Positions 4,501 to 52,331 of a stretch of 64,000 bases of DNA are shown piece by piece. Below the pieces are notes generated by a model that searched no databases, was not told the origin of the DNA, and saw only the letters and a list, made by a program, of their open reading frames with translations. The stretch comes from Muricea muricata (lineage: Eukaryota > Cnidaria > Anthozoa > Malacalcyonacea > Plexauridae). A program made the translations under genes and the position numbers. The stretch spans positions 15,830,430 to 15,894,429 of the forward strand of contig OY979720.1 of NCBI GenBank assembly GCA_963855995.1, in the 5' to 3' direction. Every line of letters begins with the position of its first letter. The stretch's first letter is position 1.

Positions 4501-7500
4501 TGTAACCTTTGTTTGATTTAGCCAAGCACGATATCGCTTGCAAAGTGTGCAAGAAGTCTTCGTTCAAAGGTCTGCGCTATAAATGCCTTCGCTGTGTTGG
4601 GTATACCTTATGTCAGGTAGAGCTAAACTCAGGTTAATTTTGATTCTGGTTTGTATACATGAATGTAATATAAGCATAGCAAACCAAAAAAAGTGTTAGA
4701 TATTCTGTTACTATACATGTTTTACAAATCTTGTATTTCAAAAACGAGATTCATATTAATCTGACACTGTAGAGAACAACGAAAAATTCGCTGTCTTAAG
4801 CGGCATTCGATCTCGCATCTTCGGGTTTCTAGACCGCCGCTCTACCAATTAAGCTATCGAGTCAACTGGAATTTGTGGCGAGTCTTATCCAATTTAAGTG
4901 CACGAAATATTTCCGTGACGACCTAACGCTTGTCGTTGAGGACGCGCGGTGTTTCAATTCTATTTCAGAAGATCGAATCCCGCTCGAGACAACGAATTTT
5001 TCGTTGTTCTCTGCAGTGTCAAATTAATATGAATCTAGTTTTTCATATCTCTGAAAATGGTTCTAAAATGGACTTATATTTCGAAATGTAAGCATCTTGT
5101 TTCCTTAGCAGAGTCAACAGTATCTTCATTGTAAAAAAATCATGACATTTATAGTCAAAAGGAAAAACCAGGAGAAGTAAAAATTGTCTTTTAGGAATGC
5201 TTTTGGAGAGGAAGAGTGGCTGGCAGTCACGCTACAGACCATGATACGAGAGAATATTCAACATGGGTATGAAACAGTAGTCGTACAGTAATGCTATATG
5301 ATTTTCGCCTAATAGATATGTACTCGTGTTCAGTATTTATTTTCGATATTTTGGGCTGCTTTGAGGACAACAAATATTTTAACGGCAAATATTTTTGTAG
5401 AATGAAGGTGAAAAGGGAACTCGACTATCAGCCGGCAAGATAGCGGACCCTTTACCACCTAAAGTACCTGATTATCCCGAGGAACCAAATCCTGATCAGA
5501 CAATGGACATGACGAATATTGTGTAAGATCATGGGACATTTGGGGTTTTTCGCACTTTATACAAAGCTCTGTGAAATAAATCTTTGAGTTTTGAAATAAA
5601 TTTGACCTTGGGTCTTTCAACTGATTTACTGTAGAAAGGCTAGCATGGACTATCGAAAACTATTTATAGCGAGGTTAACTTAAATTTTGTTTTTATCAGC
5701 CCATCAATCCAGAATGACTACTCCGTTATGAATGGTGGTGTTTTTCACTCCACACCCAGCTCATCAAGCAAGCTGAGTGATCCAGATAGTTCAGACTCAA
5801 GGTTAGTGGAGCCATATGCATACTTGCAGAAAGGCTAACCAGGATTACTTCCACAGTTCCCAAAATTCCTATCACGTTTACCTATATGATAATGGACCTT
5901 TAACCTTTTTGACGAAATTTTAGAAAAATTCGAAACAGGCAAAAATATTACCGCATCTTGAAAGAGCAACCTAAACTTAGTAAAATTACAATAATACCCA
6001 TCAATACTCATTTGAAAATAATACCCATTTGATACCCTTGGGTATTCATTTCTGACGGGTAATACAAAACTGCAGAAATTTGCCAACTTCGCAAGGCTAT
6101 ATTTTCTATAGTTTACAACATTCTACAACCAAACTTTGCAATTTTACTAAGTTTAGGATGCTCTTTCAAGCTGTGGTAATATTTTTTCCTATTTCGATTT
6201 TTTTCAAAATTTCGTCTGAAAGGTTATAGGTCCATTCAAGTTTTCATCAAAGTCAATCTAGATATGGTCTGGAGACTCGGCCACCGTCTTTGTTCTATCT
6301 TTTTGTTCGTGTTTATGCTGAATTGTGCACGGTGAAGACAATGAATTTTTGGTATAATGAAGCAATCGTCCAATAGCGTTGCGTCGCCGAAGCATTCAAC
6401 CGTACTATTAAGATATTAATAAGCAAAATTTCAAAAGATTTGTGCACGGTGAAGCCAGCTCAACATAAAATGATAGCTCATTATAAACGCTTTGAAGTTC
6501 GCCGGGTTTCCAGACCATGTCGGGATTGACTATGTTTTCATTTTGTTTTTTAGGATGGATGATGAGCACAAACTTATTGCTCGTTATGCTGCTAGGTAAT
6601 TAAGCTGTTTGTCAGTATTTGTGAAATGCCCGTCCAGTACTCTGCTTAGGTCGAGCCTACAGTGCGTGATCGCGTTCTGTAGCTCTGTTGACAGAGCATG
6701 ACGCTAGCATTCCAACGGTCGTGGGGCCAATGGACCCTTAACCTTTTAGACGAAATTTTGAAAAAAAATCGAAACAGGCAAAAATATTACCACATCTTGA
6801 AAGAGCTTCCTAAACTTAGTAAAATTGTAAAGTTTGGTTTGATATGTTCTAAAGTATGGAAAATATAGCCTTGCGAATTTGGTAAATTTTGTATACATTT
6901 GTATTACGAGTGGAAAATAATACCCAGTTGATACCCTTGGTTATTCATCTCTCACGGATAATAGAAAAATTAGAGAAAATTTGCCAACTTTGCAAGGCTT
7001 TATTTTCTATAGTTTACAACATTTTACAACCAAACTTTGCAATTTTACTAAGTTTAGGATATTCCTTCAAGCTGTGGTAATATTTTTTCCTATTTCGATT
7101 TTTTTCCAAATTTCGTCTAAAAGGTTAAAGGCGTGAATGTAGACTCAGAGTAACACCGCAAACATCACTAGGCTAGGTGCATAATAAGACTCATCAAGTT
7201 TTTCACGTAAAAAATATAATGTACAATAGTACATTATCCTACTGCGATGAAAGTTAGTGCATGGAATTAGATATTTCAATGTTTTGAATTGATGGTTATT
7301 CATAAATTTTCAATTTTATATCTTCTACAGTAAATACAGATGGTAAAGTAAATCTTCTAAACACAGATCAAATCTGTCACATACAATTATAATGAAATGT
7401 ACAAAAGTACGCTATCCTAGCGGAATGAAAATTGGTCGATGGAATTAGATCTTTCTATGTCTTGAATTTGATGGATTGCTAATGCAATTTGCATTTTATA

Positions 7501-10500
7501 TCTTTTAGATACAGATCAATGTCTTTAAATATACATTTTTAGATTGGCCGAAAGTACTGATGGTGCACCAAATACGAAGAAGACACCAGCCGAGCTTAAA
7601 GAAGATCTAGAAAAGAATAAAGCAAAACGAAAAATCATCAACGATTTACAATCGAAGAACAGGTACGACTGATTTTAGATGAGGAAGTAGATTTTAGTTC
7701 TTTGTAAATAACTGTATTGAATAATATTGTGCCTGATATTGAACCTAGATCTGGGTTTGGGTTGCATTCATCCAGGAGAACTTGAAATACACTAGCTGCA
7801 GCCTTGATGGGTTATGAGTAAATTAGAAGCTTCATACTTTTATGGGGCGTCACGCGTTCACGCAAACTTGCAAATGGTTGATGGTCAATGAGAGATAGAG
7901 AGAGATCGACCAGGACAAGAATTTGAGCAAGCAATACCAAAAAAGTTGCTGGCGTTCATTGATGCTGACGCAACATAATCTCTTAAAACCGCTAAAATTA
8001 AAGTGCAACTAACACCTTATATGATTTTTTGTATGTGATATGTTCGGATCATTCTAAGAAAAAATGTAATATATCTTTATAGTCAAAATCTTCATCGTCA
8101 TCAACTTTTCACTGATAAAGTTTCCGGATATGATGTCATTAGGTGAATTGCAAATAAGTTTTCCTTTGTTTTTTTTGCTCCAAAAATTCACCTTGTGACA
8201 TCATATCCACAATCTTTATTGGTGAAAAGTTGATGAAGATGAGGATTTTGACTATAAAGATATATTCTATTTCTTCTTAGAATGATCCAAACATATCACA
8301 TACAAAAATCATATAAGGTGTTAGTTCCACTTTAAGACATAGCCTTAATTTTAATGCATCATAATAATCAGACAACCCTGCAAAACATAAATGAAAGCTT
8401 TGCTGTAAAGGGGTGGAAGGCTTAAGATTAATATTAATATTAGGATTAGGGTTGGCGCACCTTTTAAATTAGGACTGTATCTTAATTACAGAGGCTTTTT
8501 CACAATTAAGACACAGCCTTAATTTGAGTAAGAGACTTTGCTGGTTTATAAAAACCATTATTTTACATTTTTGCTGTGCCCGCTTTAGTCATTCGTTAAT
8601 TCCCTGCCTCAGAATTCAATAAGTTGTGTCGTTGATTTTGATATGACGTTAATGATTTTATTTCTTTTACTTCAGGGAGTTGCTTGAGGAAATTCGCAAT
8701 CTTCGCGAAGTACGCGTGGCTGCCGCTGACCAACCAAATGCGCCATCGGCAGACCCTGCTCAGATGGAGGAATTGAAAGGATTACGTCAGAAGAAAGATG
8801 AACTCGAGCTTCGAATGAGCTCGCTTCAGGAGACTAGAAAGGAGTTAATGTCGCAGTTGGAAGGACTCATGAGTATATTGAAGGTTAGTTTCTCGTGAAT
8901 TTTCTATTGTCCATCTATTACACAGCAAAAAACGCACAACCTGTTCTGGCCTGATGAAAACAGCATTGAACAATGTTTTGCTGCCCACATTGTTCAAGGT
9001 TGTCAACAACATTGAACAAGTTGATGAGCCTGAATTAGCCTGCAATCAGGTGTAACAATGTTGAACAATATTGTTGACAACCTTGAGCAATGTGGGCAGC
9101 ACAACATTGTTCAATGCTGTTTTCATCAGGCCAGAACAGGTTGTGCGTTTTTTGCTGTGTAGGGGACCGGGTAACTTCATGTTTGGTACACACCATTTGT
9201 AGAGTACACACGTAAAAACGCACAAGTTGCTACAGACTTGCAAACAAGTTGTAGCAAGTCTGTTCACAAGTTGTTGACAAGGTGTATTCGCACTGCTTGT
9301 TCCGAATTTGTTGGAACAAGTTTGCAACAAGCTGTTGACAAATTGTAACAAGCTTGATGGGACTATCAGACCTGTTACAAGATTGTTCCAACAAGACTGA
9401 TACAGCATGATATAACAATATTGTTACAGCCTTGTGTTGTCAATCTTGTAACAAACTTGCTACAACAGGATTGTATCAGAGTTGTTAGAACAACCTTGTA
9501 ACAAGTCTGATATTTTCGTCAAGCTTGTTACAAGTTGTCAACAAGTTTGGAACAACTTGTTGACAACTTGGTACAAGCAGTGCGAACACATCTTGTTGAC
9601 GGCTTGTCTGCAGACTTGTTACAAGTTGTGAGATTTTTACGTGTGTAAGGGGAACCCATAGATCATTAAGGGAATGGACTGGGAACGCGAGCTAAAGCGC
9701 TAATGGAGACTGCGAGCAGTCGCTAAAGGAAACGCTTCGGAAAGAAATGAAATACGCGCTGCCCACATTACGCAAAATTCCCCTCCGTTAAAATCGATGT
9801 GTCCGTTCGAAAAATCATGTAGGTTATACAAGCCGTCCCTAAAGGAAAGGGATTCGTAGTATTACGTATCTGATTTCTTCCTGTGTTGTCTGCAGTCCCT
9901 CCTTTCATTAACATCTTACCTTGAGGGATTGCTCGCAGTCTGACGCTAATAGGGACCTTAAGATGCAAGGACGGCAACGCGATGACGACGGCTAGCAATA
10001 CAATGAACTTAAAATTATTCAACCAAAGATATCAATAATGAAAGTCCCAGGGGAGATAAAGATGTAGTCTTTGCTTAAGCTACAACGCTAGAACACACAG
10101 TTTTAAGTCGTGTTTACAACGTCGGCATTCCAAACCGCAAGAATGCTAGAGTATGAGCAAAACTACACTGGAACTTTTGACTTTTCTTAACAGTAAAACA
10201 TCAATTTTATTATCTCAAACGCTATTCTGTAAAATCGATAACAAACGATATGCTTTTAAAATTGTACAACAATTTATTTGAGTCAGTTTGTATTTGCCGT
10301 CGTCGTCGTGTTCCCGTCCTACATCTTAAGGTCTCTAATATTGCTGACGCGACACCGGTGATACGGCCTGATAGCTTCATATCTGAGCACTTTAATTTCA
10401 CTTTAAATATACATGTATTCAGGTTTACATATTTTAAACAAGAACAGCAATTTCTTTATCAGGTTGAAAACAACCTCAGCGGCGATATTTCTTGGCAATT

Positions 10501-13500
10501 AAAAAGTTGGTTTTTAGCTTTTTCCACCCAAAAGAAGTCTTAAAAATAGATAGTTCGACTGAAGTTAGTGCTGTGCAAACTCCGGTTTTTTCACCTCCGG
10601 CTCCAGCTCCAGCTCCGGCAAAAAAAAACTCCGGCTCCGGGAATAAAACTCCGGCTCCGGCAGAAAATTTTATGCTTGTGCAAATTTGTCAAAATTGGAA
10701 ATTTTTGCAGTTTAAATTGGAAACACCATCTTTGTTTTTTGTTTAACACTTCGCATTAACATTTTGTGATATGCACGATGCACGGTATTGTATTTGCAAA
10801 ACAAGACGCATGGTCAATGTGGTTAAAACTTTTTATTATTAAACTTAATGAAAGCAAGTTTACCAATGTTTCCTGTTACAATGTTGCCCGCGAAAGAAAA
10901 GACTCTCCCAGACGTTGCTGATGAGGGTAATGTTTCAGTTATTCTTGAAAACACATATTCGACCTCTCATGTTGACAATTGTAAGCATAGCGTCGCAGCG
11001 TTTGATGAAATTTTTAGATAAAATTTTCACGCGCTTTACCGTGTTGTAGACGTCACAGTTATACAAAAATAAAATAAAATGCCATGATTATAATTTGTAT
11101 GTTTGTGGCAAGCAATAGTAGGCTGTATTTACTTTTTCGTCGATGGAGTTAGTTTTTTCGTTGATCTATGATAGAAGTTTGCAGCACAAATAAGTGCTGC
11201 CGGAGTTTCGCCGGAGGTGAACAAACTCCGGCTCCGGCAAAATAGGTCAAAACTCCGGCTCCGGCCCTCCGGCTCCGGTGCACAGCACTAACAGAAGTGG
11301 TCGTTCTTGTTTAAAATATGTAAATATATACCAAGTCCTGATTACAGGGTTCCAAAGTAAAGCGTATCAGGCCGTATAACGTATGTCATCAGCGCTTCGG
11401 CTTGCGTTTCCGTTTTATTTCTTTGTCTATGCGCAACCTCACTACTTTTCAAAGGTTCTTTATATGAATGAGATACAGTAGATTAGTTAAGTAGCAGTAG
11501 AGGTGAATATTGGAAGAATATCCCTGCACAATTAGTGATAGTGAAGTTAATATAATAGCATATACAGTTTGTAATTAAACAATAGACCAAAAAAAGCGAA
11601 AATATTTTACAGTTCTATTGTGTGGTAAGTAGCCAATCAGAAGAAAAAGCACTACATTATATTATTGTATTGTACAAGATCGTTTAACGGTAGATCTTCA
11701 AACACAGAGAACAAAGTGGATTAATGGTGTTCAAATTGTTTCTGCACTTCGTTTCATGGCATAGTCTAGGCGCACAGTTTGTTGGAAATTTGTATTTACA
11801 TGACTTTACTTTGGGTTATGCACTTGAATTGGATTTCTATTTACCAGCGATATGATTCATTCCGGTCTGTGGCAAACGTTTAATACACCCCTTGTTCGTT
11901 TTGTACCTATTTTGTTCAACTCCAGCCACTGTAGTGCATATAGTTAACAGTCAATAGTCTTCAAAAAGGTATCCACCGAATAGGATAGAAATTCAGACAT
12001 AAAAACGACGTCCAAGATGAAAAAAGTAGTGTAATACACAACTTCATGTTGCCAACTGATGTCAGTGGCGCCACGAAGAATTACAAATTGCTGCTTCAAT
12101 ATCGACATTTTATGCATTAAATAACGTACGTATTTCGCTTAAATCGATATGGGTGTAACTTTGAAGATCTTTTCCCTCAAAAAGCTTAATAAACCATGCA
12201 TTAATTGTGGTAGAGTCGAAAAATATTGTTATAAATAGACACAAGTGTTACACGTTCACTTTGTCGTTCATGTTTGACCAATCACAGCGAAGCACAAAAG
12301 TTCTAAACATTTGCCACAGACCAGTTCATTGCAATACCTTGCAATCAATTGCAATCTTTTATCTCTGGCTACGTCACCTATAACTTATATGCCATCACAA
12401 TAATGGTGCATGGAATTGTTTTCAGTATCAAAAAACTCTTATGTGATCTGAGCACTAGAATATATATTGTCACATAATTCTTACACCACGAAATTAATCG
12501 TGTTATTTGTCACCATTAATCTGCACTGTTCGTTGTGTTTCAGTCGAAGCTATACTAGGCATAAAACTTGTTTGAAAACCACCATTGATCCACTGTGTTC
12601 TCTGTGTTCTAGGCAGAGCATCTTTGAGTCTTGGGAAAGATGGACTCATATTTTGGGAGCTTTCTCTCCTCCTAATTCCCGTGGATATTCTGGAAACTAT
12701 TTTAACCACGAGCCTCGGGGAAGATCTAATAAATATATAGGAAAATTGTCGATCTATTCGGTCGCATATGGAACTGTATTTTAATGTGATGTAATGCTCA
12801 TGAGCTGTAGATTGTTTAAATTGCCACTAATAGTTCTCTAGCCATAGTTAAGTACAATGCAGTTGGACTAAGTTTTATTACGTAAATTCGTTTTTTAGTC
12901 GCACTCTGACAATAGACGACTTGCATGATTAAAGTACTAATATACAGTAACTATAGTTTTTATTAGGAAATGATGGTTAAAACCTGTGAATTCAAGGTTA
13001 ATAATAGACTAGACAGTCAAAGAAATTTCCTTTGGTTGCCCATGATGATAAGCAATGGTTTCTTTGGAGATTCCATCAACATTAAAAAAATGCTAATAAG
13101 GCCTAGATACAAACTGGGTTTTTTACAAACCTTCTCAAAAACGCTAACAACAAATTGTAACAAGTTGGCAACAAGCTGTTATCAAACTTTGTTGAGGTTC
13201 TAACAAGTCCAACGCAGTCATGACATAGCTTGTTGGAAGTTTATGGACAGATTTGCAATAAGATGTTTTCTTATCATTTTGGTCAACTGCATTACCAACT
13301 ACGTAACCGTGATACTCTGTGATACTCCTAATGGTACTCTAATACTCCTACTGATACTCTGATACTCCTAGTGATACCCTATGATACTCCTAGTCACACT
13401 CTATGTTACTCCTAGTAATACTCCTAGTGATACTCCTAGTGATACTCTATGATACTCCTAGTGATACTCCTTGTGACACTCCCAGTGATACTCCTGGTAA

Positions 13501-16500
13501 TACTCTATGATACTCCTAATCCCCCAGAACATGAAGCTATAATAGCATATATTCTCTTTATAAAATTCTGTTTTGATATGGCAAAATTTTACGCATCTTG
13601 TACGTTTTAGATTGTAACACTTTCAATTATAATAATGCCCATGTGGAAGTTACTAATAATAGATATTTAGATTATTTTATATATAAAGAAGATTTTAGAT
13701 GCTTAAATTTGTGTTAGTCTTTTTGAGTCGTTAAAGTTCTATGTGCAAAGCGCACTTGGCTATTTTAAAAAAGATGGCAGCATGTCGTGATCCTTTGCTG
13801 ACCTAAATTGTTTTGATACCATTAACATGAAGTTTGACTTGTCAACGTTAGTTTTTATTAGTGCAGAATACTTTTCTCCGGTAACTTGATGTCATAAATA
13901 TGAATCTTCTGAGTGTTTTCGGACATTTCGGACACAAGGTCTACGTGTAGTTCTCGCAAAGGTAACGTTTTTTATTATGGTCAATTGTCAGAGCAAGCTT
14001 CTTTCACGTTTAGTTGGTTGGTCTTTGCTTTCTTTGGAATCTTGACACTTGTGTAAAGAAGTTTAGTTTATGCTCTGTGAAGATAGCATGCTTTCATGGG
14101 GTACACCCTGTTTTTTTTTCTACGAAGAATGGTTCATCGGCTTACTCGTCACTCTTCTCTATCTAGTAGGAACATATAGCACGAATTTGGTATATAACTT
14201 AGCATATAGCAGGAACTTACAAAATCGTCGACTTGAGCAGATCCGACGGTCATCAATTTTTGTTCGTTTTAGCTTTCAACTGTAATACGCATAATCTTTC
14301 TACCTTATGTTTGTTCCAGTAGGGACGGTATTAGAAACCTGAATGAAACGTAATATTTAAGTGGAACAAACTTCCAAAAAGCTTGCCCCGAAACTTAAAA
14401 ACAGAAATAGAAACCTTGTCTGCTTAAAGCCATTTTGCAGGGAAATTTTTTTCGCAGTACACAATGATGACGACAGCAAAACATTTCACGTTGATCGATA
14501 ATGTCAAACACTTCGCCTATGAATCAAAATTCGTCAGTGTTTTGTTCGCAACTGTTCATTTTGTGGGCGATTTGCCCCAATCACAGTCGGTCATCAAAAT
14601 TTTTGTGCTATCGAAGACACAGTTGCGTTGCCAGAGTGAGATCAATTGATGAAAAGGACGTAAATACATATAAACTAAAACATTAGGTTACATAATCCAG
14701 CTCTGGGTATTTGGTTTAATTAAGTGTATTTAAAATGCTATGTAAGCTTCACAAGTTAAAATGAAGTGTCCTCTAATCTTTATTATCAGGCTGGTTCACC
14801 AAGAACTCGTTCAACGCCAAGTTCACCGTCAACTCTCCCCAGGAATCCCGACTATAAAATGCGTTCGCCATCGGATCAGTCTCCAGGCCGCTCGTCCGTT
14901 CACGGTGTCGGCAAAGGTAACCCAAGTCATCCAGGGAGAAATCTTCGAAACGATTTGCTGCATGCCGCCGACAATGTCACAAATGCAATGTCGTCGCTTG
15001 TCAATGAACTCACTTCAGGTAAATATATTGGCCAGTTCGTTCGACTTGGGGGGGGGGGGGGGGGGCTTCAGAATAATCCGATTATATCTCCTGTGTAATC
15101 AATTTCATACAGTCCACTATACTTAGGAATCGTTATTTTCTCTATTCCTACCCCCGTCTTCTAATTGACAGCTACACAGAAAAAAGTGCAACCTGTTCAG
15201 GGTCAGCATAGGCTCTTACTCAAAGAAGAGCTATGTCTTAACTGCCAAAAGGCCTCTCAAACTAACTCGTCGGGGAGGCAGAGGTACAGAAATATATGTT
15301 TACTTACCATACCGAGGGGCAAGTTCATTTTATGTTTATATTGTACCTTGAGGTCTAATAAATATATTTTTGCATGTTGAACGCGATAAAATTTCTTGTG
15401 GGCTCCAGCCAACACGTTTTTCCCGAAATTTTCTATAAAACTATATTATTGTGAAGAAAGGCGAAATTTCAGATTTATTTCTGAGAAAAACCACTTACGT
15501 TATCAAAAAGGTAATAAAAAATTACATATAACACATTATTATGGTTACTTTTATTTTTCACATTTTTGTTGAGTTATGAGCGTTTGAAAACTTATTTTCC
15601 GACTAGTGCCTAGGAAATTAGCGCCATTTTAGGACACTTTCCCATTTTGAAGCAGCAATAACTCAAAAACGGCTTGAAAAATAAGGATACCCGTAATGAT
15701 GTCTTATATGCTGTTTTTTATAAGCTTTCTTATGATACAAGTTATTTTTCAAATGAGCGAATTAGAAAGTTTACTATTTTTGACCACATAATAGTTTTAC
15801 AATAAAACTGAAGAAAAACGTGTTGACCGAAGACCACAAGATAAATCGGGCCAAACAACATTCAGAATTGTGATATTAGGCACCCAACGGACAATTTAAG
15901 AGCAAAATTGATTTGCCCCTCGAGAAGGTAGGTAAAATTACCTCTGCCTCCCTGCCTAAAGATACGATAGTCTTAATTTAAAAGGCGCCCTAATCCCTAC
16001 CCTAATCCCCCGATCACCCGCCTCTTTATAGCTTCCGTTTATGTCTTACAAGCTTGTCTGATTATTAGGGTGCATTAAGATTAAGGCTATGTCTTATTTT
16101 TAGCCGTTTTTGCGATTAAATCATAGCCTTAATATTAGGAAGAGATTGTAGTACTAATAGATCATTTTACTATTTATTTGTTCTTCCAGATTTACAAAAA
16201 GTTTAAATACTTTTGTCTAACGTTTCGGTCTCCTCTACGGAAACCATTATCAAAGACTATGAAATTAAACGAAACGTTTAATTTATCGAAAAGTATTTAA
16301 ACTTGTTGTAAATCTGGAAGAACAAATAAATAGTAAAATGTTTCAACCTGGATTCAAACCCTTCAATGAACTAATAGATCATGTTGCCTGGGTTGATGGA
16401 AACAGCATGGAACATTGTTTTGACGCCAAACATTGTTTTGTTCAACATGTCAACAATATCTTCAGCATTGTTGAACTGGAATTAGCCTGCAAGCAGGTGT

Positions 16501-21702: not shown

Positions 21703-21795
21703 CTCGTTCATTTTAGTCTGTTGGCGTCATATTGCTTTTGAAGTTTGAAATTAAGACACAGGCACGGGAACGACCTGTATTGCCAAAAAGCTTTA

Positions 21796-22587
21796 ATGAT
21801 GCTTTTGAAGCGACTGAGGCATTCCATGCTTCTGTTCTGCGTTATCTTCTCTTTCAACGGAGCCTATGGCAAGCCAGTGGAAGGGATAGAAAGCGTTGAT
21901 GGAGAAGTCGTTGAGCAACCATACCATGGCAAAAGAGAGCTTGCTGAACAGCCCTACCACGGTAAAAGAGAACTCGAAGATGAACAACCGTATCACGGAA
22001 GAAGAGAGTTTGAAAAAGAACAACCATACCACGGTAAAAGAGGTATGAAAGACGAACAACCGTACCACGGCAAAAGAGAAATGAAAGACGAACAACCATA
22101 CCACGGTAAAAGAGAGATGGTAGACGAACAACCGTACCACGGCAAAAGAGAAATGAAAGACGAACAACCGTACCACGGCAAAAGAGAAATGAAAGACGAA
22201 CAACCATACCACGGTAAAAGAGAGATGGAAGACGAACAACCGTACCACGGTAAAAGAGATATGAAAGACGAACAACCATACCACGGTAAAAGAGAGATGG
22301 AAGACGAACAACCGTACCACGGCAAAAGAGAAATGAAAGACGAACAACCATACCACGGTAAAAGAGAGATGGAAGACGAACAACCGTACCACGGCAAAAG
22401 AGAAATGGAAGACGAACAACCATACCACGGCAAAAGAGAAATGGAAGACGAACAACCATACCACGGCAAAAGAGAAGAGGAAGACGAACAACCATACCAC
22501 GGCAAAAGAGAAGAGGAAGACGAACAACCTTACCATGGTAAAAGAGAATTTGCTGAGTTCGGTGTTGAACAACCTTATCATGGATAG
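21796..22587 (+). CDS. Neuropeptide precursor, 19 copies of QPYHG
   Basis: This is a secreted prepropeptide of 263 residues in one exon. I chose the ATG at 21796 because the open frame further upstream has no ATG. Residues 1 to about 25 (MMLLKRLRHSMLLFCVIFSF, then NGAYG) form a signal peptide. After a short acidic stretch come 19 copies of EQPYHG. Eighteen are followed by a dibasic site (KR; RR in copy 3); the last Gly is the C-terminus. Family knowledge: dibasic cleavage plus Gly gives an alpha-amide, and N-terminal Gln cyclises. Cnidarian precursors are often trimmed at acidic residues, and each copy is preceded by Glu. The predicted product is therefore pGlu-Pro-Tyr-His-amide, 19 per precursor. 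Spacers are short and acidic (EMKD, EMED). Receptor and role are unknown; I do not recognise a named family. Confidence 0.9.
   Translation: MMLLKRLRHSMLLFCVIFSFNGAYGKPVEGIESVDGEVVEQPYHGKRELAEQPYHGKRELEDEQPYHGRREFEKEQPYHGKRGMKDEQPYHGKREMKDEQPYHGKREMVDEQPYHGKREMKDEQPYHGKREMKDEQPYHGKREMEDEQPYHGKRDMKDEQPYHGKREMEDEQPYHGKREMKDEQPYHGKREMEDEQPYHGKREMEDEQPYHGKREMEDEQPYHGKREEEDEQPYHGKREEEDEQPYHGKREFAEFGVEQPYHG
21913..22580 (+). repeat. 36-bp coding repeat of the neuropeptide gene
   Basis: Most units are 12 codons. CCA/CCG and GGT/GGC at the Pro and Gly codons often alternate from unit to unit, which gives a partial 72-bp higher-order period. The long minus-strand open frames opposite it are by-products of the repeat. 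Confidence 0.85.
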
Positions 22588-22796
22588 TAAGACTATATAA
22601 TTATAAAGAAACTTCAATTCAAAGATATAGTGTAAGATAAGTGTAGATATCGTGAACATTATGTAGAAAAGTACATTTTTGCAATGCATTGTTGAATAGA
22701 TATTCTATTCACCCTACAATCTGTATGACATTGGCAATAGAATATGTACAGTTTGATTTGCGAGATATCGGCATACTAATTACTTTTAGTTCCTTC

Positions 22797-22802
22797 AATA
22801 AA
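22797..22802 (+). terminator. Polyadenylation signal AATAAA of the neuropeptide gene
   Basis: AATAAA lies 210 bp after the stop codon, in a plausible 3' UTR. Confidence 0.55.
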
Positions 22803-23449
22803 TTATCCAGACGTTCATGTTATTTCAATGTTTGACCATCTGCTTTTTCGTTGCCATAGGAAGGCTGCGTTGCCTAGCTAAGATGCTTTGCTCAAAATCG
22901 CTAGATTTTCTTTATTAGAAATTCTTTTTGTAAATAAGTTTAGGTTGGCAAAATCTTGCAAGAATGACATTTTCCATCGACTAATATCATTTTTTGCGTG
23001 CTTGTGCAATTTTAGTTTGACTGAACAGGCAAACTGTTGTCAATTTGGTAAGAAGCTCACTGAACTCATTATTTGAACTCATTATTTGTAAGACAAAAGG
23101 AAAAGAGAAACTTCAGAGCGAAAATTCAAAACATATTGTCATTGATATATTTATACAGTTTCTCTGTCGGTTTTCGATGAAATTTCTTCAAAATTTGCCT
23201 CAAATAATTTTCCCTTAGAGTGTCAGTGGACGGATCATGAATTAATTGCATATTGGGAGTTTGCTTTTTGATAATGTGAAACAATGCATGAAATTTGCTT
23301 ATCCAAGTTCAGCACTTGTGTGCTTAAATTCTTCATGTGTCAGGGTTTCATTCACATTTTTGTTCAAGGTATAAATTATTGGCTTCTTTCTTTCAAGCGA
23401 AGGTCCTTCGTCGGAGTCAAGTTTTTGACAAAGGCTCGTGATACTAAAA

Positions 23450-26956: not shown

Positions 26957-29900
26957 TTAAGGGCATTGTTGGCATCTGTTCTGGCAGAATTCTCCAAAGT
27001 CGTCACATTCATCGTCTAGAATATCTTCGCACCAAAATTCATCAACGCATTCTGCTTTGAAATATGAGAGAATATTTTGGTGAAGAAGTTACTAATTGAA
27101 ATTTTATTCAGTGTACAAAACTTGCTGGTTGAACTGTGGGTTTTACGCCATCGGGGGATATATTTCCTAGACATTATGTCCCCCTCATGTCTTCCCTTTT
27201 GGAAATCTGGCATAAGTACTTGCATGGATAAAAATACTTCCTTAAAATGGTTAAAAGGTGATGATTTTCCTTAGCCGCTGTGCTTCATGCTTTCCCCAAC
27301 ACTAATGGACCATTTCCCTTTTAGACAAACTTTTGAATTAGGAATATTCATTAGCACAGCGAGAAAGAGCATCCTAAATTTACTAAAATGGTGAAGTTTG
27401 GTTGCTAAACATTGTAAAATGTGGAAAATGTAGCCCTGTGAAGTTTGCAAATTTTGTATACCTCTGTATTAAGCGCGGAAAAGTGTAATCACATTTCGAA
27501 TTCTGATTACACTTTTCCACGCCTAGTACAAAAGTATACAAAAGTGCAAACGTCACAGGACCATATTTTCCACATTTTAAAATGTTTTGCAATCAAACTT
27601 CACAATTTTACTAAGTTTAGGATGCTCTTTTCAGGTGTGTTAATGAATATTCCTAATTCAAAAGTTTGTCTAAAAAGGGAATGGTCCATTGTGTATTTCA
27701 TTTTAAGAGAAAGCATCGAAATATTCTTTCTTTATGGGTTTTTTTCATATGAAGCTTAAGATAACCTAGAACAATCATGAATTTTCGTCGCCAATGTCAT
27801 TTAAGATGACTACACTTTAAGATTGTGGTGTCACATCCTTGTTTTTGTAATGAATAATGAAATATGATAAATGATATAATTTATTAACTAACCTGAGGTA
27901 TTTGAAGCTAGAGTAAAAAAGTTTAAAAAATAAATTGAAAACAAAATCATATTATTCTGTATAAATTAAAGGGAGAAGGGGTTAAGCTAAAGTCGCCGAA
28001 GATTTGCTTCTCAACGAGGTCTCATCCTAGCCTCATGTGAAAAGAGTAATCAAACAAAGAGTAAGAAAACTGGGTACTCCAGTTTTCTCCTGCAAAGAAC
28101 GTTGACGGGCTGATTCATAGTTGTAACTGGGCCACAGTAACTGGCATATGATGCCTGTGGTGACCTTCCCGTATGGCGAAGCTAAATAAGAAGTAACTAA
28201 TGGGGCAGTTGTTTTTAGCACGTTTAGCTTCAACGGTGAATCGGTGAACATTTACTAACATACTCTAATACATTTTACAAATGTAAAATTGAAATTTAGC
28301 TCGACAGTCAGACATGAAGTTTAATTTATAATTATTGATATATAATTATTTATATTTTTCCTCATTTATCTTAAACCAATTCTATGTTTATAAGTTCCTT
28401 GCAGGCCCGTGGCTAGAGCGTTAATTGGCGGGGGAGGGTGTATATTCATATATTCGTGTTATGACCAACTTCAGTTTCTTTTGAAATTAGCTGCCATTAG
28501 GGTTAATTTCAAAAGAAATTAGTTGGTCATAACACGAATATATGAATATACACCCCCCCCCCCCCAATTAACGCTCTAGCCACGGCCCTGGTTCCTTGTA
28601 TGTTTGCATGGTGAACATCAAATAAAATGTGGAAACACCACGTAAGATGGTTATAATCCGTGTTCTCATATAAATCTTAATCCAAGCCCTAACCCAAACC
28701 CTAATCCTAACCAGCGTTTTATTTGTTATATTTTAACTTTGATAAATTGAAGGTTTGATTAGATTTAGGGCTTGGATTAAAATTTAGTTTCGCGTACTGA
28801 GAACACGGAATTATTACCCGTAAGTTTATCATCGCAAAGCTTTCGATCTGTAAGCTCGGACCTTCATCAGTGCTAATGAAGATCCGGGCTTTCGGATCTA
28901 ATGCTATGCAGTAATAGGTTCACGAAAAATACTGCGCGAAAACGAGGCTACTGGGAATTAAAGGGATGGCATTGCGAAGTCTTGACAACAGTGATCATCA
29001 ATTGATCACATTGTTATACTATAAGGCACATCAGTATATACGGACGCACACATTTAATTGATTTGACCGAGCGAATTCCCATATCTATGACAATTTGTTT
29101 AGTTATAATACTTTTACTAGGTCCATGTAAGAAAGTATGATAATATTGGTTTTCTACAAGTTTTGTAAAAGCATAGTATAGTTTTATACTAGCTTCAGGC
29201 CTGTATCAAAGTTTTCATCACCACCATTATATTGTGATTACTGATTACTGCGACTAAAATTGTTCCCGGAGGCTGTGCTTGCCCTGTTAATTGCTACTAA
29301 ATTTTGGTTAAAAATCTGACTAATGTAATCGTGAGCCTAATATATACCTATATATACGTGTATATAAAATGTGATCAGTGGTGGATCCAGGGTAAGTCAG
29401 AATAAATTATAGCAGCTCAAAATAACTTTATAACAATGTCTTAGGTTATGAATTTCAAAAGAATAAAATCTAACCAATGAAGTTCCTTTGAAGGTATTTT
29501 AAAATGTAAATATATCCTAGAATGAGCTGTGGTAATTTATTTTGACTTACGCTAGATCCGCCACTGGTGATATAATGTTACTTACGATAAAGATAGTTGA
29601 TTCCATTGATGTCGTCTTGAGCGAGAGCAAAATTGGCGCTGTATGGCTGGTACTGGGCATGCATAACAGAGTCGGATTGCGCGGAGTGTCCCAAGCCAAG
29701 GGCATGACCTATTTCGTGGGCAGCAATCGACAACAGGTTCACTTTATTAGGGTCACCGCCAGTTGTGAACTCTTCATCCGAGTCGAAATGGATTCGGCCA
29801 TCTTCTGGGTAGAACGCGTGTGCGACCACAAGACCTGGACCATCGAATGGTGTCGCATCGCCGTGAGAGCCAGAAACAAACCTAAATTTATTGTAATTGG

Positions 29901-32900
29901 TGTTTATGATTTCACAGTGTGTTGATGAATTGTAGTGAAGAATTGTCAGGAGCAAAAATCAGACCTCCCAGGAAAATGCGAAATTAGCAAGAATAAGGTG
30001 ATATTGATGTTATGAGTACAGGAGAACCGGCCAACGATATTATGAAATGGAGGTGTTTCTATGATTTCCCTATGGTTTTAGTGTGTTTACGGTAGTAGTG
30101 AAGAATTGTTATGAGCAAAAATCAGACCTCCCAGGAAAATGCGAGTTTAGCAAGAATAAGGTGATATTGATGTTGTGAATACAGGAGAACCGGCCAGCGA
30201 TATTATGAAGTAGAATGTTTCTATGACTTCACAATGGTCCAGTAGTGCTTAACTGTAGTAGTGAAGAATTGCCATCAGACCCCCTAGGAAATGGGAGATT
30301 AGCAAGAAGGTGATGGTATTGATGGTAGAAATATACAAGAAAATCGGTCAGTGATATTATGGAATGGAGGTGTGCCCCTGTTTTGCATAGTATTGGCCTT
30401 TCTGAATCAGTTTAATTTCCCAATCTGAATCGACCCGATTTCTTACTTCTACCTTTAATTCAAGTATGCGAAAAATGGATATGTTATAGGCCTATTTCAG
30501 ACGTCGAACTTTTCATGTGTCGAACCTAATGTAAATGAGCTAAAACAAAGAGTTTAGTTCATTTCATTAGATTCGGTGCATGAAACTTCGACGTCTGAAA
30601 TAGGCCTAACATGCATATAACTTGATTTCTGACCAAAGAAAACCCCGAAGAGTACGACCCCGTTGCTTTGAATCTTATCGGAATCCGATCAGAATAATCG
30701 GATTAGCAAATCAGAATTATTGAAATTAGCAGATCGCTGTTTTGAATGGAGAGATCACAGGAAATATGAAAGAAACAAACCATTAAGTGGAATGTCTGGA
30801 TAGATACAGTCATCATATTATGTTATGAAGAAAACATATAAACTTTCTAAGGGATAATTGCCATAATTTTATAACTGAAATAATGGATTTCCTATACAAA
30901 ATTGGAATTTAATATATGTGAAAGCAGTAGCGAAGCCAGCCAGACAATTTGGTCATGCTATGCAAATTTAAATTATTATCATTATTCATTTCTTTAGAAA
31001 TGGATTCCTTATATTCTATAAACACAGAAAAACTACAAATGCGGATGACCAAATGTCGGGCTGGCTTCGCCACTGTGTAAACTTCGGATACTAATTACTA
31101 TAATTAATGACGACCATAAGGGCTTAAAATAAAAAACTTTATTCTTCACAACGTTTCGGAGCATTACTCCATCCTCAGGTAATATAAACAATTGGAAGAT
31201 CGACTAATGTTCCGAAACGTAAAGATTAAAGTTGTTTTACTTCAAGCCTTTGTGGTCGTTTTTAATTTCAATACTTAATTATTATGTGAAATCCAGTCAT
31301 GTACAAATCCAAATCCAAATCTACAAATCCAGTCATGTACAATCCGAATCCACAAATACAAATCCAAGTCCAGTCTTGTACCAAGAAGTACTTTAGTAAA
31401 CATATATAAATCTCTTATTCTCCCGCATTTGTCGTATGGTATTGTAGTATGGGGACAGGCAGCTAAGATCCATTTAGAAAAAGTCTTAAAGCTTCAAAAA
31501 CGTGTTCTTCGGTTAATATTTTTTGAAGATCACGCGTCTCATGCGATACCTCTTTTTCTCTCTTCTGATTTCACAACTTTTTTAATACTTATTCCAAAGA
31601 CATAGATAATTATAACACAAGATCTTCATCTAACGTTAACTTCTATGTAAAACATTCTCATCTGAATATACTAAATAATTCATTTTCAAGAATTGGAGCC
31701 AGGATATGGAATAGCATTCCTGGGGATTTATGCAATTTAGCGAAAAATAAATTTAAGAAACGCGTACATTAAATAGTACTTCAAATACTTTCTGAGAAGG
31801 ATGATTATGTTGACCTTATAACATTAATAAAACAAGTCAAAATTTTCAACCACGCAAAATAAGTAAGTTGGAGAATCGCACTACTGTTTTTTGAATTTTG
31901 TGAATTGTTTGTCTGTATTGCTGCCGCTTTCTATTTGCGTGCAATTAAGAATTGTATTGTTCATTATTCTATATTAGTCCTTATTCGAAATTATAATCTG
32001 TTTTGTATTAACCACTTAATGTTATATTCGACTAAAATTGTTTTGTAATTGATTTGATTTAAAGCTGTCCGCCTCGATTAGCCTATGCTATTTGCGGGCA
32101 GCTAATAATTCTGTAATTTCTTGATTTGAATTTGAATAAAAAGTTATTACTAAAAAAAGTTATTATTAAAGAAAAAGTTACATATAATTATGATGTATCT
32201 AGAATCAATTATGAAATTCCAAAATGTGAAAAAAATCGTGGTCATATCTAATTATCAACCCACATTTCTATATACAGAAACATTTCTATACATATGAAAT
32301 ACTAACTTATTTTTTTATAATTTTCTCACACTATATTTCCTAAAATAAATATCCTCGCACTGGTAATATCCGAACTAATTCCCGCATGCACAGTCTACGG
32401 CGCATGCACAGTCTGCTTGACATTCGTACTTAGCAGGGGTAGGTAAAAACGCGTTATCACAAATTATTGTCAAACAACAAGGGAGACCGACGAAGCGGGA
32501 AGTCAATCTGACTCTAAAACCGTATCTTCGCTTTCTTTTGTGTTTGCATCACGCTGTTGTAATCTAAAGGCTTGTTCAAACGAAGCCAACATCATGCAAC
32601 ATTGTTGGGCCAACACACAATTTGGAACTCTGTTTATATGCCATGAAATCGAGAACTTTGTAGAGATAAATGCAGCTGTGTCCAGAGACAGAAGGCGCGG
32701 TAAGAATAGAGAGGAGAATCGGGGAGGAGACATGAATTTGGGCGAGGATAGTCGCATCAAACAGATGGTCCACAGACTTAAAATAAAAAGATGAATGGAT
32801 TTCGAGGAGATGATCGGAATATCTAAATTGAAAGTGAATATACGACCCTGGCGAAGAAGCAATGGGTGGACTAAAATGACCTAAATATCTGGCCAAGAAA

Positions 32901-33587
32901 TAGATCTGAGCTAATGCACGTAACAAGGGAGAAACAGAGTTGGGCGGACTAGATCATCGAAAGAATGACCTGAGCTGACGGTGGATAAGAGGGCCAAGCA
33001 ATAGCGTCGACTAGGTACTAGATACCTTAATTGTTAAGCAATAGACAGTGGGAATGGGAAGGGAGAATACGAAATAGAGAAGAAGAGGATGTTCCCGGGA
33101 GAAGAAATGGTGTTTCCAAATGCATAAATAAAAATCTTTATGTATACTGTAATTATACTTACTTTATATTTATGTCAGCAGGCGTACTGCCTTGCACTTC
33201 GCTGGCTGTGAGCACCGATGCGTCAGTCCATAATTTAAACGCCTTCGCAATCTCTTGTCTTTGTTGCTCCGCTGGCAAGTCATTGTCGAAACTCTCAATT
33301 TTGTATGTCAGTGCGGTCTTGCCCCACGGCGCATGTGGAACATATCTTTTCTTGCGTTCACGCTTGTTTTGGAATGTTCCTGTACCTATGTCGGGATCAC
33401 CACATCGAGGCTTTTTTAAAATCCTGGCCAAAGTTCGTTCAAATGTTGGCACAGCCTTATTCATGAATCGTTTTTTCCCAATCTTTACTCCGTTCCACGT
33501 TGCGAATCTCCATAAGGCGTTTACAAGTTGGCTTGTAGTATATGTCCTTAATGCTGGCGCAGTGTAACCGTAAGATTTCAGGAAATT
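26957..33587 (-). CDS. Matrix metalloproteinase with C-terminal ShKT domain
   Basis: A secreted zinc endopeptidase of the matrixin family. Exons on the minus strand: 33587-33163, 29881-29586, 27051-26957; phases 0, 2 and 1 join cleanly and all borders are AG/GT. Exon one holds the propeptide core (FLKSYGYT), the cysteine switch PRCGDPD, a furin site RERKKR and the start of the catalytic domain ([16 protein letters not shown]). Exon two holds PFDGPG, the zinc site [11 protein letters not shown] and the Met-turn SVM. The last exon encodes six cysteines spaced as a ShKT domain (C-x5-C-x7-C-x6-C-x3-C-x2-C) and then stops. There is no hemopexin domain and almost no hinge: YLYQ runs straight into the first Cys. 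ShKT domains occur on some metalloproteases and channel-blocking peptides; here it may place or modulate the enzyme. Another small exon between 29.5 and 27.1 kb cannot be ruled out. Confidence 0.85.
27304..27690. mobile_element. Palindromic MITE, family C, copy 3
   Basis: It starts AATGGACCATTTCCC and ends GGGAATGGTCCATT, with CTAAATTTACTAAAATGG and its inverse inside. It is diverged from 5891-6236 but has the same order of motifs. Confidence 0.72.
28402..28590. mobile_element. 189-bp hAT-like MITE with perfect 8-bp target duplication
   Basis: The ends CAGGCCCGTGGCTAGAGCGT and its near complement CGCTCTAGCCACGGCCCTG open arms of about 80 bp. GTTCCTTG flanks both sides (28394-28401, 28591-28598). 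A half copy is seen at about 46790-46855. Confidence 0.88.
28658..28808. mobile_element. Inverted-repeat element with CCCTAA-like interior
   Basis: CCGTGTTCTCATATAAATCT on the left and GCGTACTGAGAACACGG on the right, with AATCCAAGCCCTAA and its inverse inside. Confidence 0.6.
29376..29566. mobile_element. CAGTGG-ended MITE beside the MMP splice donor
   Basis: The ends CAGTGGTGGATCCAGGGTAA and TTACGCTAGATCCGCCACTG are inverted repeats, flanked by GTGAT on both sides. The right end lies 19 bp from the donor at 29585. A partial relative is at 46290-46445. Confidence 0.72.
29905..30365 (+). repeat. ~163-bp tandem repeat, nearly three units
   Basis: GTAGTGAAGAATTG recurs at 29932, 30095 and 30258, followed each time by CAGACC and a GATATTATG-containing segment. 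The array begins within 25 bp of the MMP acceptor at 29882. Confidence 0.85.
30487..30608. mobile_element. 122-bp palindromic element
   Basis: TAGGCCTATTTCAGACGTCG at the left and its complement at the right; a loop of under 50 bp with further symmetry. Confidence 0.7.
30925..31075. mobile_element. hAT-like MITE, second copy of the 24766 family
   Basis: The ends CAGTAGCGAAGCCAGCCAGA and GTCGGGCTGGCTTCGCCACTG. The interior is collinear with 24766-24913 (TTTGGTCATGCTATGC, ATTATTCATTTC). The flanking 8-mers TGTGAAAG and TGTAAACT agree at 5 of 8 sites, a decayed duplication. Confidence 0.75.
31387..32175 (+). pseudogene. LINE fragment, 3' end of the reverse-transcriptase ORF plus tail
   Basis: The plus strand encodes [20 protein letters not shown], then [20 protein letters not shown], typical of the region after the reverse-transcriptase core in non-LTR elements. 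A frameshift near 31600 leads into a second frame ending [20 protein letters not shown] at about 31770. A 3' UTR and an A-rich tail with GTTATTA repeats follow. 5' truncated and dead. It lies in the MMP intron. Confidence 0.75.
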
Positions 33588-36660: not shown

Positions 36661-37187
36661 AGATTATACTTGTCTGTACTCGTTTTAATTGTTTCCCATA
36701 TGGGAATTTAGAGCACGCCCACAACCTTGGTTCACGACCACAGAGGCGAGTCGTTCTCCGTGAGAAATGATTTTGTACAATCGTTATGTTAAAACTAACC
36801 TCTCTGAAAGTCCAAAAATGCACTAAGATGTCACTTGGTTTCTAGGACTACATTATAACAGGTGATATTAAATTCTATAGATGTTTGTATGCCTCCTGAA
36901 GAGTGCGCAATACTTTACGTGCTGTTCAAGTGCAGGCGGCAACATGTGTTTGCCAAATTAAGCAACATTATTCCGGTAAAGTGTTAATATTTTACCATCT
37001 TGATGTTCTGATATATGCGTGCGACTCAAATCAAGTTTCTGATACACTGTAAACTAAACTTGTCTTAAATAACACACAATCATGTGTGTTGATTTGACTC
37101 CTATTCAAATTTGTTCCTCAATTTAGCTTTTCACTCATATTTTCCCCGATTTCGTGACCTTTTGATGACATTAGTCTTGACACTTAC

Positions 37188-37361
37188 TTTAATGCGAGCG
37201 ATACAAGCAGCTTGTCTTGTGTTTTTATGATTAAGTCGGCGTTTTAACAACGCGTAACATTTATGAATTTTTAATTTGTCGTCTTCTGTTTGGTCATTTA
37301 TTGGTAGGGCCAACGTGCTACCCAAGAGCACTAGAACGCCAGCTATCACAGCAAATCTCAT
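37188..37361 (-). CDS. Signal-peptide first exon, probably of the MMP gene
   Basis: The exon runs from an ATG at 37361 to a perfect donor (AAA then GTAAGT at 37187). It encodes 58 residues: a signal peptide (MRFAVIAGVLVLLGSTLA), an acidic stretch (NDQTEDD) and a basic helical segment with two Cys (HKCYALLKRR; AACIARIK). It ends in phase 0, matching the phase-0 start of the propeptide exon at 33587. The join would give one 329-residue MMP reading [12 protein letters not shown], a sensible propeptide helix. The ATG 42 bp upstream is less likely because the signal peptide starts best at MRFAV. If not part of the MMP, it begins an unknown secreted protein. Confidence 0.55.
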
Positions 37362-37445
37362 CTTGTTTGTTCTACGTTTCCAGCCGCGTGTGCCTTCGGT
37401 CATTCAGCTACCTTGCCTTCTGGCCTTCTCGTTTTCTGCACAAGG

Positions 37446-48726: not shown

Positions 48727-51399
48727 TTATAAATCTAGCCAGGAAATAAGTTCACCGCTATAGTCACTGCTCTGACTCGGCGGGGTTGTTGGTCCATCAA
48801 AAGACAAAACAGCTTTGGGAATATCATTTCCCTGATAGGCCCAGGAAGGAAAAAAGTCCTGTTGTTCTTCTTCAAACGACGACGTTCTTAGCGTTGTGTT
48901 TTGTGTGAGTTCATTGTGGTTGCGTATTTCTGGCTTCTGAAATCCAGATTGAAGGTCTGACCATGTACTACTACTGTACTGTCCAGTAACGATATCGTCC
49001 TGGTTCATATTCACCCCAAAAAATACTTCGTCATCGCTCGGCGTGGGCGAAATTATTCCCTATAGAGAAAACAGGTGTGACGTGTACACAAACATAGGAT
49101 TTTTCACTGGACAAACAGAATTCGGCACTTCCTGCAAAGGGCCTTCGTCGCGAAGTTAATAGTGAGTTTTGGCAATATATAGTTGATTAACTACTATCTT
49201 TCCGACGAAGAGTTTTGCTCGAAACGTCGACTTCGGTTCATGTCATTTCAGGCTGTGGTATTCTGTATGTTTGTGTGCTTTGACTGCACTGTATCGACAC
49301 TGGCAACGTCATTGAGTGATTGGTTTTAGATCAGCCATAGTGAAATAAACATCGAGAATCTACATGGAGTTTTTTACATTGAAAAGTTCCAGTAAGCTTA
49401 TTACAATATTACATTATTACTCGAGCATCATATTTGTTCAGCGCGTTATAACTGGATACTCATTTCCCGGTATAACACGTCACTTAGCGTGGAAGCCTCA
49501 TTCTCGTGGTGTTTTAGCCAATCACATTATGCATGTGGGAAATGGTAACAGGGCTACTATTGCCCTAGAAAGTATTCTTAACGAATATATTATTAAAAAG
49601 TGTAATTTTTTTAGCATGCCCATTCAGACCATTCTTCACAAGTCTCGTCATCACAAGCATTAAGAAATACCATATCACTATTATCATCTAAGGATGAACA
49701 ATTATTGATAAAAGCTAGAAAATATTGTCGTTGCTCACGCGAGTCCTCACGTGAATGCCGAGGGCAAACAATGTGTACTATGTAAATGTTTAAACTTCAG
49801 TTTAGGTAGCGTTTTGGCACAAAATTCTTTGACGCGTTTTTTGTATTTCTATATTTGTAATGATCACAAAATTCCCTAAACAAAATATTCAGCTAGGAAG
49901 CCCTTTAAGTTTCACTGACATGCTACCAAACTCCGTGTTTCGTTTTGGAGCAACAGATCGATTTGTTTATACTGTTTACTAACCGAAAGTATTGCATACA
50001 GATAAATTTGATACACAAGCGATGTTTTGATTTTTCGTAGCCGCAATTAGGAGTGGCTAATTTCCCCCGAGAATTTTTGCTGCGTCTATACATTGCTACA
50101 CAATACGATTTCATCTACAGAAAACGACCTGTCTGGGATTCCACTGATAGCCCGATAACGAGAATTAGATTTGCTAATAGAGAAGCTTATAGGCAGCCGA
50201 CATTTTGACAATAATTATGATAGACATAACCCGGAATCTAGATATCATGTGGTTATAAATAACATCAGCCACTCGGCTTTTCTAGAACAGCGGCCAGTGT
50301 AAAACCAAAACCGGTTGTCGTCATCGTTGACTAACACTTTGACTTTTGGCTGGCTTGCGCCAATCTAAAAAGGTCGCTCAGGCCCAGCCATGTACGCTAC
50401 TCACGCGTTCATTAGGGTCAATTTGCCTGCGCTGGCTTAGCGGGGGTGACGATTTCCAAAAACAATGCGACGGAAAATGGCGCCTTTACGAAAATGAATT
50501 TTATCGTAGTTTGTCAGACTAATCGTATCGTGTCGTCCAAGAAATAAGTCAAAGCATCATTTTCTGCATTCTCTCTAGGTTTTGTTTACGTGTATTTAGA
50601 CAGAAACGTTGATAACGCAAATTAATATAATTTACCTGTTCGAGCAAAGTGCATGATAACATGCATATATGCTTTTGATTCGTGAACCTTGGCTGTTGTA
50701 AAAGCGGTTTCAAATAGATCTAAAAATGCTTTAACATCACTTTGGTCAATGAAAGTATTGTAGTACTGTTAAGCGAAAGCTAAATTGAATCTAACTTTTG
50801 AGTGGCCTGCTTATGTTATGAAAAGAAATTATATTTTTGTAACTCCTTGTTAAAATAGTTTACACTTCGATTAACTATAGTTTGTTCGAATAAACTATGA
50901 AACAGTAAAAATCTAATGTTGTACAAAGCGATCGACTTCGATAATGCGCATACAACACTTGATCCAAGTATGCAATTTTTTATGCTGTTTACTTAATAGA
51001 AATTCTGCTTACCAATTGCGAATTTTGATCACCAAAAGGAAACGCATTTGCTCTCTCAAGACCTTCAGGAAACATTTCATTCGATGTTCTTGGACTTTCG
51101 CTTGTACTTGTTCCTGCGCTCAACTTAAAAGCCGTGCTCTTTTCCAATTGCGTCATTTTCAAAAGCGCCGTTGCTTCGCTCTGCGACACCATTTTGGTCA
51201 AAATTTGTATGTAATCAATAGCGAACTTAAGTACGTCAAGTTTTGTACGTATACGCCCCGAGTCGCAGTATGGAATGTGCGTCTTTAAGATCTCGAACGC
51301 CTCGTTGATCTTTCTGACGCGTTCTCGCTCGCACTTGTTCGCAAGAAGGCGCTTGATGGTTGGTTTATTCTTCATCCGTGCTCTTGTTGTAGTTTCCAT
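48727..51399 (-). CDS. bHLH transcription factor, two exons
   Basis: A nuclear DNA-binding protein of 239 residues. The minus-strand exons are 51399-51013 (129 codons, donor GTAAGC) and 49059-48727 (110 codons plus stop, acceptor CTCTATAG), joined in phase 0. The bHLH lies at about residues 16-70: basic region KRLLANKCERERVRKI, helix 1 NEAFEILKTHIP, helix 2 TKLDVLKFAIDYIQILTKMV. The Glu and Arg of the ERERVRK core are the usual E-box contacts. Exon 2 has SPTPSDDE and ends SDYSGELISWLDL, which recalls the short acidic-aromatic C-terminus of achaete-scute proteins. The basic region is not a close match to that family, so I call it group-A-like bHLH, achaete-scute-like possible. The start METTTRARMK is the only ATG before the domain in this exon. 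Confidence 0.85.
49060..51012 (-). other. bHLH gene intron, 1.95 kb
   Basis: No exon or nested gene is supported. About 49070-49275 has weak inverted ends (ACAAACATA / TATGTTTGT) around a CCGACGA..GAAACG stem-loop motif at 49204-49227. The rest shows nothing recognisable. Confidence 0.6.
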
Positions 51400-52331
51400 T
51401 TTGTCTTATGACGCAGGAGGTATTGCTCTAGTCCCGGCTTCAAGAAAATGCTGAGTACCGAGTTATTCTTCGTTTTTATGAGACAATTATGGATTCCTCT
51501 TCCTGCTCTGTGATTGGTGAAATGCCACGTAAACTTGACCTAGCGCGCGTACGAGTGGCTTTGTCACACGCAGACAGTTGTTTTGTCGGTTGTTGAACCA
51601 AAACATCTCGTTGTTTTTGCACTTTGCATCGCTAATGATAAAAAACAATTCAACAGTTTGATAAAATGCCATAGTTTCGATTGATCCAAAGTTTATAATT
51701 ATATACATACAGCTATTATTTTCTGTCATCAACTCAATTTATACGTGTAAACATTTTTACACGGCAAAGTAATGGCTCGACTGTAATGTAACGCGTCTTT
51801 ATTAATGTGATTTGTTATTCCCACGGGTTGCAGCTCACACCATAAACCTTATTTGCGTGAGATTAAAAGAGTTGTTTTGAAAGGTTATATCGCGTTGATT
51901 TTTGCAAATCAATTTGAAACTTGCACGTAGATTTGCAATGCGCGCCTTTCCATTGGAGAAATATACCAAAGTAATAGCTTCATTTGACAATTCTTTGAAT
52001 ATTCCATGAATTAAATTGGATCAAATGAAGTCCACGGGACTTAAACTGTCAAGCAGAAACACGGGGAACGGTACTTATGAACAACCTTTGATCATCGGGG
52101 GGGGGGGGGAGGTTGCAATTCGCGCTTATTTAGCGCGCGCTACAAGGGCATATCGTACGCACTTGGTTTAATAATACGAAGGAAAGGTTATATTTTGGCG
52201 AAATTGGCTCATTCAGTAACTATGTACGGGGGGGGGGCTCTACTCTGACATTTGCGTATAAGGATAAGGCCTGCGGAAATTTATAAAATTTATTTCCATT
52301 ATTGCAGTGATATGATCTGTGTAGAGGTGTT
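51400..52331. other. Divergent spacer between bHLH and UBX genes
   Basis: Both genes point away from this 930-bp spacer, so it should hold both promoters. Minus-strand CATAAAAA (51473-51480) is a weak TATA candidate for the bHLH gene. Two G-runs lie at about 52099 and 52228. No coding exon. Confidence 0.5.

Follow-up and report, generated by a model that had tools for sequence, protein, structure and literature searches.

A 19-copy precursor gene of Muricea muricata probably encodes pQPYHamide, a likely member of an octocoral His-amide neuropeptide family

Analysis of a 64,000-nucleotide stretch of the Muricea muricata genome (the window; C5:15830430-15894429 in a genome of 453,007,491 bases and 74 contigs) identified a gene that probably encodes an octocoral neuropeptide preprohormone, the local member of the anthozoan (pQ/P)P-aromatic-His-amide peptides (octocoral family #4), in the form pQPYHamide. 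Family #4, termed Octocorallia-specific, comprises PPFHamide and pQPFHamide, in which PP or pQP is regarded as protection, with RPFLamide occurring in Heliopora (PMC6909153, Koch & Grimmelikhuijzen 2019). Judged from sequence, membership of the Muricea gene in this family is likely but unproven. The exact peptide, a paralog of the gene, and the uniform Tyr of the peptide appear to be new, whereas the kind of peptide is already known.

The features of the gene are listed in Table 1, together with two other peptide precursors of the same genome. The precursor frame begins with two Met codons, and because it is open throughout, no intron is required in the coding part. Its N-terminus, MMLLKRLRHSMLLFCVIFSFNGAYG followed by KPVE, has a basic n-region, a hydrophobic core with a Kyte-Doolittle mean of up to 2.9 over a 9-residue span, and A-Y-G ahead of the likely cut; the signal peptide was called from hydropathy and the -3/-1 residues only. 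When the protein was cut at G[KR]R without reference to any motif, 19 units were obtained, and EQPYHG was terminal in 19/19. The copies are followed by KR in 17 cases and by RR in one, so that Gly plus a dibasic site is present at 18/19, and in the 19th copy the Gly abuts the stop codon. Glu stands immediately before Gln in all 19 copies. The original prediction had described a signal peptide, 19 EQPYHG copies, 18 dibasic sites, and a last bare Gly, and these coordinates and counts proved exact; likewise, its proposal that the precursor carries one short peptide many times over, predicted as pGlu-Pro-Tyr-His-amide, is supported by 19/19 units. In the remainder of the window, QP[YF]HG was found in none of the six frames.

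Table 1. Coordinates of the precursor gene, its parts, and two further peptide precursors of the genome (positions are those of the window unless a contig is given)
Feature	Position	Strand	Remarks
QPYH precursor ORF, 263 aa + stop	21796..22587	+	ATG at 21796, TAG stop at 22585-22587; intact, open along full length
Predicted signal peptide MMLLKRLRHSMLLFCVIFSFNGAYG	21796..21870	+	hydropathy; cut after AYG inferred
Short propeptide KPVEGIESVDGEVV	21871..21912	+	14 residues, ahead of first copy
19-copy EQPYHG array	21913..22584	+	16/18 spacings = 36 bp
TATA-like TATTTAA	21695..21701	+	~100 bp 5' of ATG; weak, inferred; outside block common with paralog
Poly(A) signal AATAAA	22797..22802	+	kept in paralog
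Block common to gene and paralog	21788..22836	+	8 bp 5' of ATG to 34 nt past AATAAA; gap in 3' UTR
Antho-RFamide precursor	around C6:14528304-14529227 (within C6:14527500-14531500)	minus	26 QGRFG copies in frame
GPRRamide precursor	C15 ~10216598-10216893	minus	15 GPRRG, 9 DEIT in frame

The repeat units were then compared by codon position. Eighteen copies have the 24-nt core E Q P Y H G K/R R; among them, bases departing from the majority occurred 0 times at first, once at second, and 23 times at third codon positions, against 11, 4, and 11 times in the spacers (12 nt) of 16 regular units. On this codon-position pattern, a pure DNA repeat was rejected. Within EQPYHG of the window gene alone, at least nine distinct codon changes were counted, all of them synonymous; nine out of nine would have a probability of ~2.5e-6 if changes were random (pooled synonymous fraction 0.24), a value that is approximate since the copies are related by duplication. 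Adding the paralog's 10 intact copies (29 in total) returned the same nine codon changes. As only intact copies were taken, the absence of amino-acid changes is built into the 29-copy count, whereas the count for the window gene alone is free of that fault. Only EQPYHG and the cleavage-site Arg were invariant, and the spacer varied. Repetitive secreted proteins exist, and the gene could on that ground encode an uncut structural, adhesive, or venom-related protein. Such a protein is highly improbable, however, considering that amidated peptide precursors are laid out in this way, with Gly plus a dibasic site after 18/19 copies and a terminal Gly before the stop in the last, that no residue beyond EQPYHG and this Arg is invariant, and that no Pfam family was matched at the cut-off by the precursor (three matches, all below it).

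The antisense strand carries three long open frames of 303, 248, and 178 codons. Over 15 units, 7/12 codons were amino-acid invariant in the sense frame, compared with 3, 4, 4, 6, and 4 of 12 in the five other frames; the frame with 6/12 is the antisense 178-codon stretch (window 21996-22529, minus strand). By itself, therefore, the codon-position pattern leaves the choice between the sense frame and this almost equally uniform antisense frame open. The antisense stretch, however, lacks any ATG and is already interrupted by a stop in unit 1 of the 15; in the paralog, stops break it in one unit after another, so it was rejected as coding. For this reason the sense frame is taken as the one that codes and is under selection, and the open antisense frame of 178 codons probably arises as a side effect of the sense repeat.

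A genome search with the precursor gave five matches, among which only one was a clear relative besides the gene itself; the three others were unrelated repeat proteins with DLAG(E/K)K and PVRGKK repeats. The paralog shares the strand of the window gene and lies 236 kb downstream of it (C5:16088367 onwards). It has an N-terminus as in the window gene, followed by 10 EQPYHG copies with RR after eight and KR after two. EQPYHG is kept in 10 of its 11 in-frame units, the 11th reading EQSYNG, and the 3' end is partly decayed, with a frame shift after the 11th unit and one more decayed unit out of frame. Between the two genes, codons 1-39, which include the signal peptide, differ by five amino-acid changes and one silent change. 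When the first five cores were paired in order, nine silent changes and two K/R swaps were found and none altered EQPYHG. In this pair of duplicates, four residues are thus held strictly constant, whereas the spacers, the cleavage sites, and the number of copies have drifted. Comparison of 10-kb stretches around each gene, from which the limits of the shared block were set, detected homology only within that block, and it stops abruptly on both sides. On the sequence, these limits resemble those of a transcript or an exon. Since the block does not end in a visible poly(A) tract, retroposition is only one reading of the paralog.

Other genes of the window were also annotated. At 50992-51399 (minus strand), a Twist-like bHLH gene with an HLH domain (Pfam) was found, and among the 16 database relatives of its protein the sole informatively named one was a Twist-related protein of Paramuricea clavata, with 77% identity. 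A further piece assigned to this gene, at 48730-49059 (minus), is without a Pfam match and by eye is like the C-terminal part of a Paramuricea protein. Matrix metalloproteinase exons (Pfam Peptidase_M10) lie at 29581-29955 and 33162-33587 (minus), a tandem repeat of 163 bp in 2.1 copies at 29932-30271, and an exon with a UBX domain match (Pfam) at 52311-53015 (plus). The pieces at 8656-15095 (plus), which we take to be like dystrophin/dystrobrevin C-terminal exons, gave no Pfam match for the two pieces tried. A small frame at 37134-37403 (minus), which has the signal-like stretch MRFAVIAGVLVLLGSTLALP, several dibasic sites, and no Pfam match, could encode another secreted peptide. Finally, a tRNA-like Rfam match of 35 bits occurs at 4792-4863 (minus) and is absent from the ARAGORN output.

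Elsewhere in the genome, two other peptide precursors were recovered by pattern scans. For the QGRFG-type pattern, 54 matches were obtained against 19 in the control, and 21 of the 54 cluster in the Antho-RFamide precursor. The ITGPRRGR pattern gave 10 matches, all in the one array of the GPRRamide precursor (control, 0); a DEIT-flanked arrangement has been described for the GPRRamides, which are specific to Octocorallia (PMC6909153). Together with the Paramuricea-like bHLH protein, the two precursors make it very probable, as far as sequence can tell, that the host is an octocoral, as family #4 requires.

The original prediction had recognized no named family with the C-terminus of the Muricea peptide. 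This did not hold, given PPFHamide and pQPFHamide of family #4 (PMC6909153) and PFHamide of Nematostella vectensis (PMC11087051, Thiel et al. 2024). The latter activates a single GPCR, R36, with an EC50 of 1.2E-8 (~12 nM), and its precursor was only partial in that study's transcriptome; nanomolar concentrations of a peptide of such kind can thus activate a GPCR. A C-terminal His-amide is not by itself diagnostic, as Nematostella also has VRHamide (PMC11087051; RHamide also in PMC6756747). To place the Muricea genes relative to these peptides, exact patterns were scanned through the genome. Of the 42 QP[YF]HG matches, the window gene accounts for 18 and the paralog for 10, and the other 14 are isolated, scattered hits (control, 6); PP[YF]HG gave 15 matches, likewise scattered (control, 13). 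Neither a QPFHG nor a PPFHG array turned up in these exact-pattern scans, whose patterns leave CGT and CGC Arg codons after the Gly outside. By this exclusion and by the likeness over four residues, the gene pair probably fills the place of family #4 in M. muricata.

In the protein database, none of 2007 candidates was related to the precursor at E<=1e-3, and a wider query found none related at E<=10 among the best 8000 candidates scored; mock QPFHG and PPFHG precursors used as a control scored E<1e-20 against the precursor under local scoring. QPYHamide, PYHamide, and QPYHG found no mention in the full-text literature, a scope that stops short of supplements, and a QPYH copy is possible in Supplementary Figure 13 of PMC6909153. 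Within the portions of text available, PYH, PFH, and Hamide had no occurrence in PMC7523074 and PMC8638164, PYH and PFH were absent from PMC9545775, and PFH was absent from PMC6756747; PMC11896702 gave a single hit, in its reference list. These results bear on whether the gene could be a genuine neuropeptide precursor of independent origin, its tetrapeptide having come to resemble PFHamide by convergence. Such an origin would fit a match of only three out of four residues, the commonness of pQ and Pro-2 as protective features among cnidarian peptides (PMC6909153), and a precursor with no database relative, for which the comparison covered the peptide only. Nevertheless, a peptide that is exactly pQPFHamide occurs in the same subclass (PMC6909153), and no QPFHG/PPFHG array was found in the genome, so we consider independent origin unlikely, albeit the most serious of the alternatives. 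Under the preferred assignment to family #4, we infer common descent with PFHamide precursors, and the octocoral and Nematostella peptides would form one family, even though PMC6909153 treats family #4 as confined to Octocorallia.

For the family #4 precursor, the following processing may be proposed. The signal peptide would route the precursor into the secretory pathway and then be removed; prohormone convertases would cut after KR/RR, a carboxypeptidase would strip the basic residues, and the exposed Gly would be converted to the amide. The N-terminal Gln would be freed by cutting or trimming within the acidic spacer and would then cyclise to pyroglutamate. Each precursor could in this way yield up to 19 pQPYHamide, with a calculated [M+H]+ of 526.241. 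The peptide would then act on a class A GPCR, for which one of the R36 kind is, by analogy, the likely target. We infer these processing steps, the expression in neurons, and the receptor from the gene and its published parallels. In Nematostella, mass spectrometry detected C-terminal dibasic cleavage and amide formation from the C-terminal Gly, as well as cuts on the N-terminal side of Q that lack a basic site and often lie beside D/E (PMC11087051). The latter is in line with the cnidarian-type trimming at acidic residues that had been proposed for this gene, in which E precedes Q in 19/19 copies, and the argument that Pro in position 2 serves as protection has been published in the same form for family #4 (PMC6909153). 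A search for the PAM domain PF03712 gave no genome match, which is uninformative since 14 control genomes likewise gave none.

Trimming might instead halt in the spacer and release a longer product, for example, EMKDEQPYHamide or DEQPYHamide. Dibasic cleavage alone would free the whole unit, and extended PRGamide and QGRFamide forms were seen in Nematostella mass spectrometry (PMC11087051). Yet the spacer varies while EQPYHG is constant, and longer PRGamides had a higher EC50, the authors holding the tetrapeptide to be the actual peptide (PMC11087051); a longer product is accordingly very unlikely, and the tetrapeptide pQPYHamide is retained as the predicted product.

The uniform Tyr at position 3 allows a further, tentative reading, which we regard as possible rather than probable. 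In this octocoral lineage, the whole peptide system may have switched from Phe to Tyr at this position, Tyr being present in each of the intact copies that the two genes contain; the gene would have been copied within transcript-like limits, and the arrays would have grown separately with the four residues fixed. If the switch is true, the receptor must have changed too, or accept both residues. pQPYHamide is a concrete, testable ligand for an anthozoan family for which the sole receptor met in the literature, as far as the available texts go, is that of Nematostella PFHamide. Its value lies in octocoral neurobiology, and it is not a new class of signal.

The precursor can finally be set beside known systems. 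Thyrotropin-releasing hormone (TRH) is pGlu-His-Pro-amide, and bilaterian TRH precursors likewise contain numerous copies of a short pGlu...amide bordered by dibasic sites. The peptide here reads QPYHG, however, and differs from TRH in residue order and length, with no sign of common descent; TRH membership was rejected on the peptide sequence and has almost no chance of being correct. The likeness to TRH precursors is thus one of form only, as had been originally stated, and according to PMC6909153, none of the peptides described there is significantly similar to known bilaterian neuropeptides. The Antho-RFamide precursor of the same genome is alike in its many pQ tetrapeptide amides and its many spacers with acidic residues, but differs in having mostly single Arg sites, a GRFamide C-terminus, and far more varied spacers. 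Nematostella PFHamide, compared by its C-terminus, shares Pro-aromatic-His-amide with the Muricea peptide, with Phe in the hexacoral and Tyr here. Closest is family #4, which is alike in octocoral host, tetrapeptide length, pQ plus Pro-2 protection, and an aromatic residue followed by His-amide; compared at the peptide level, three of the four residues match, and the difference lies at position 3, where all 29 intact copies of the two genes carry Tyr in place of the Phe of pQPFHamide.
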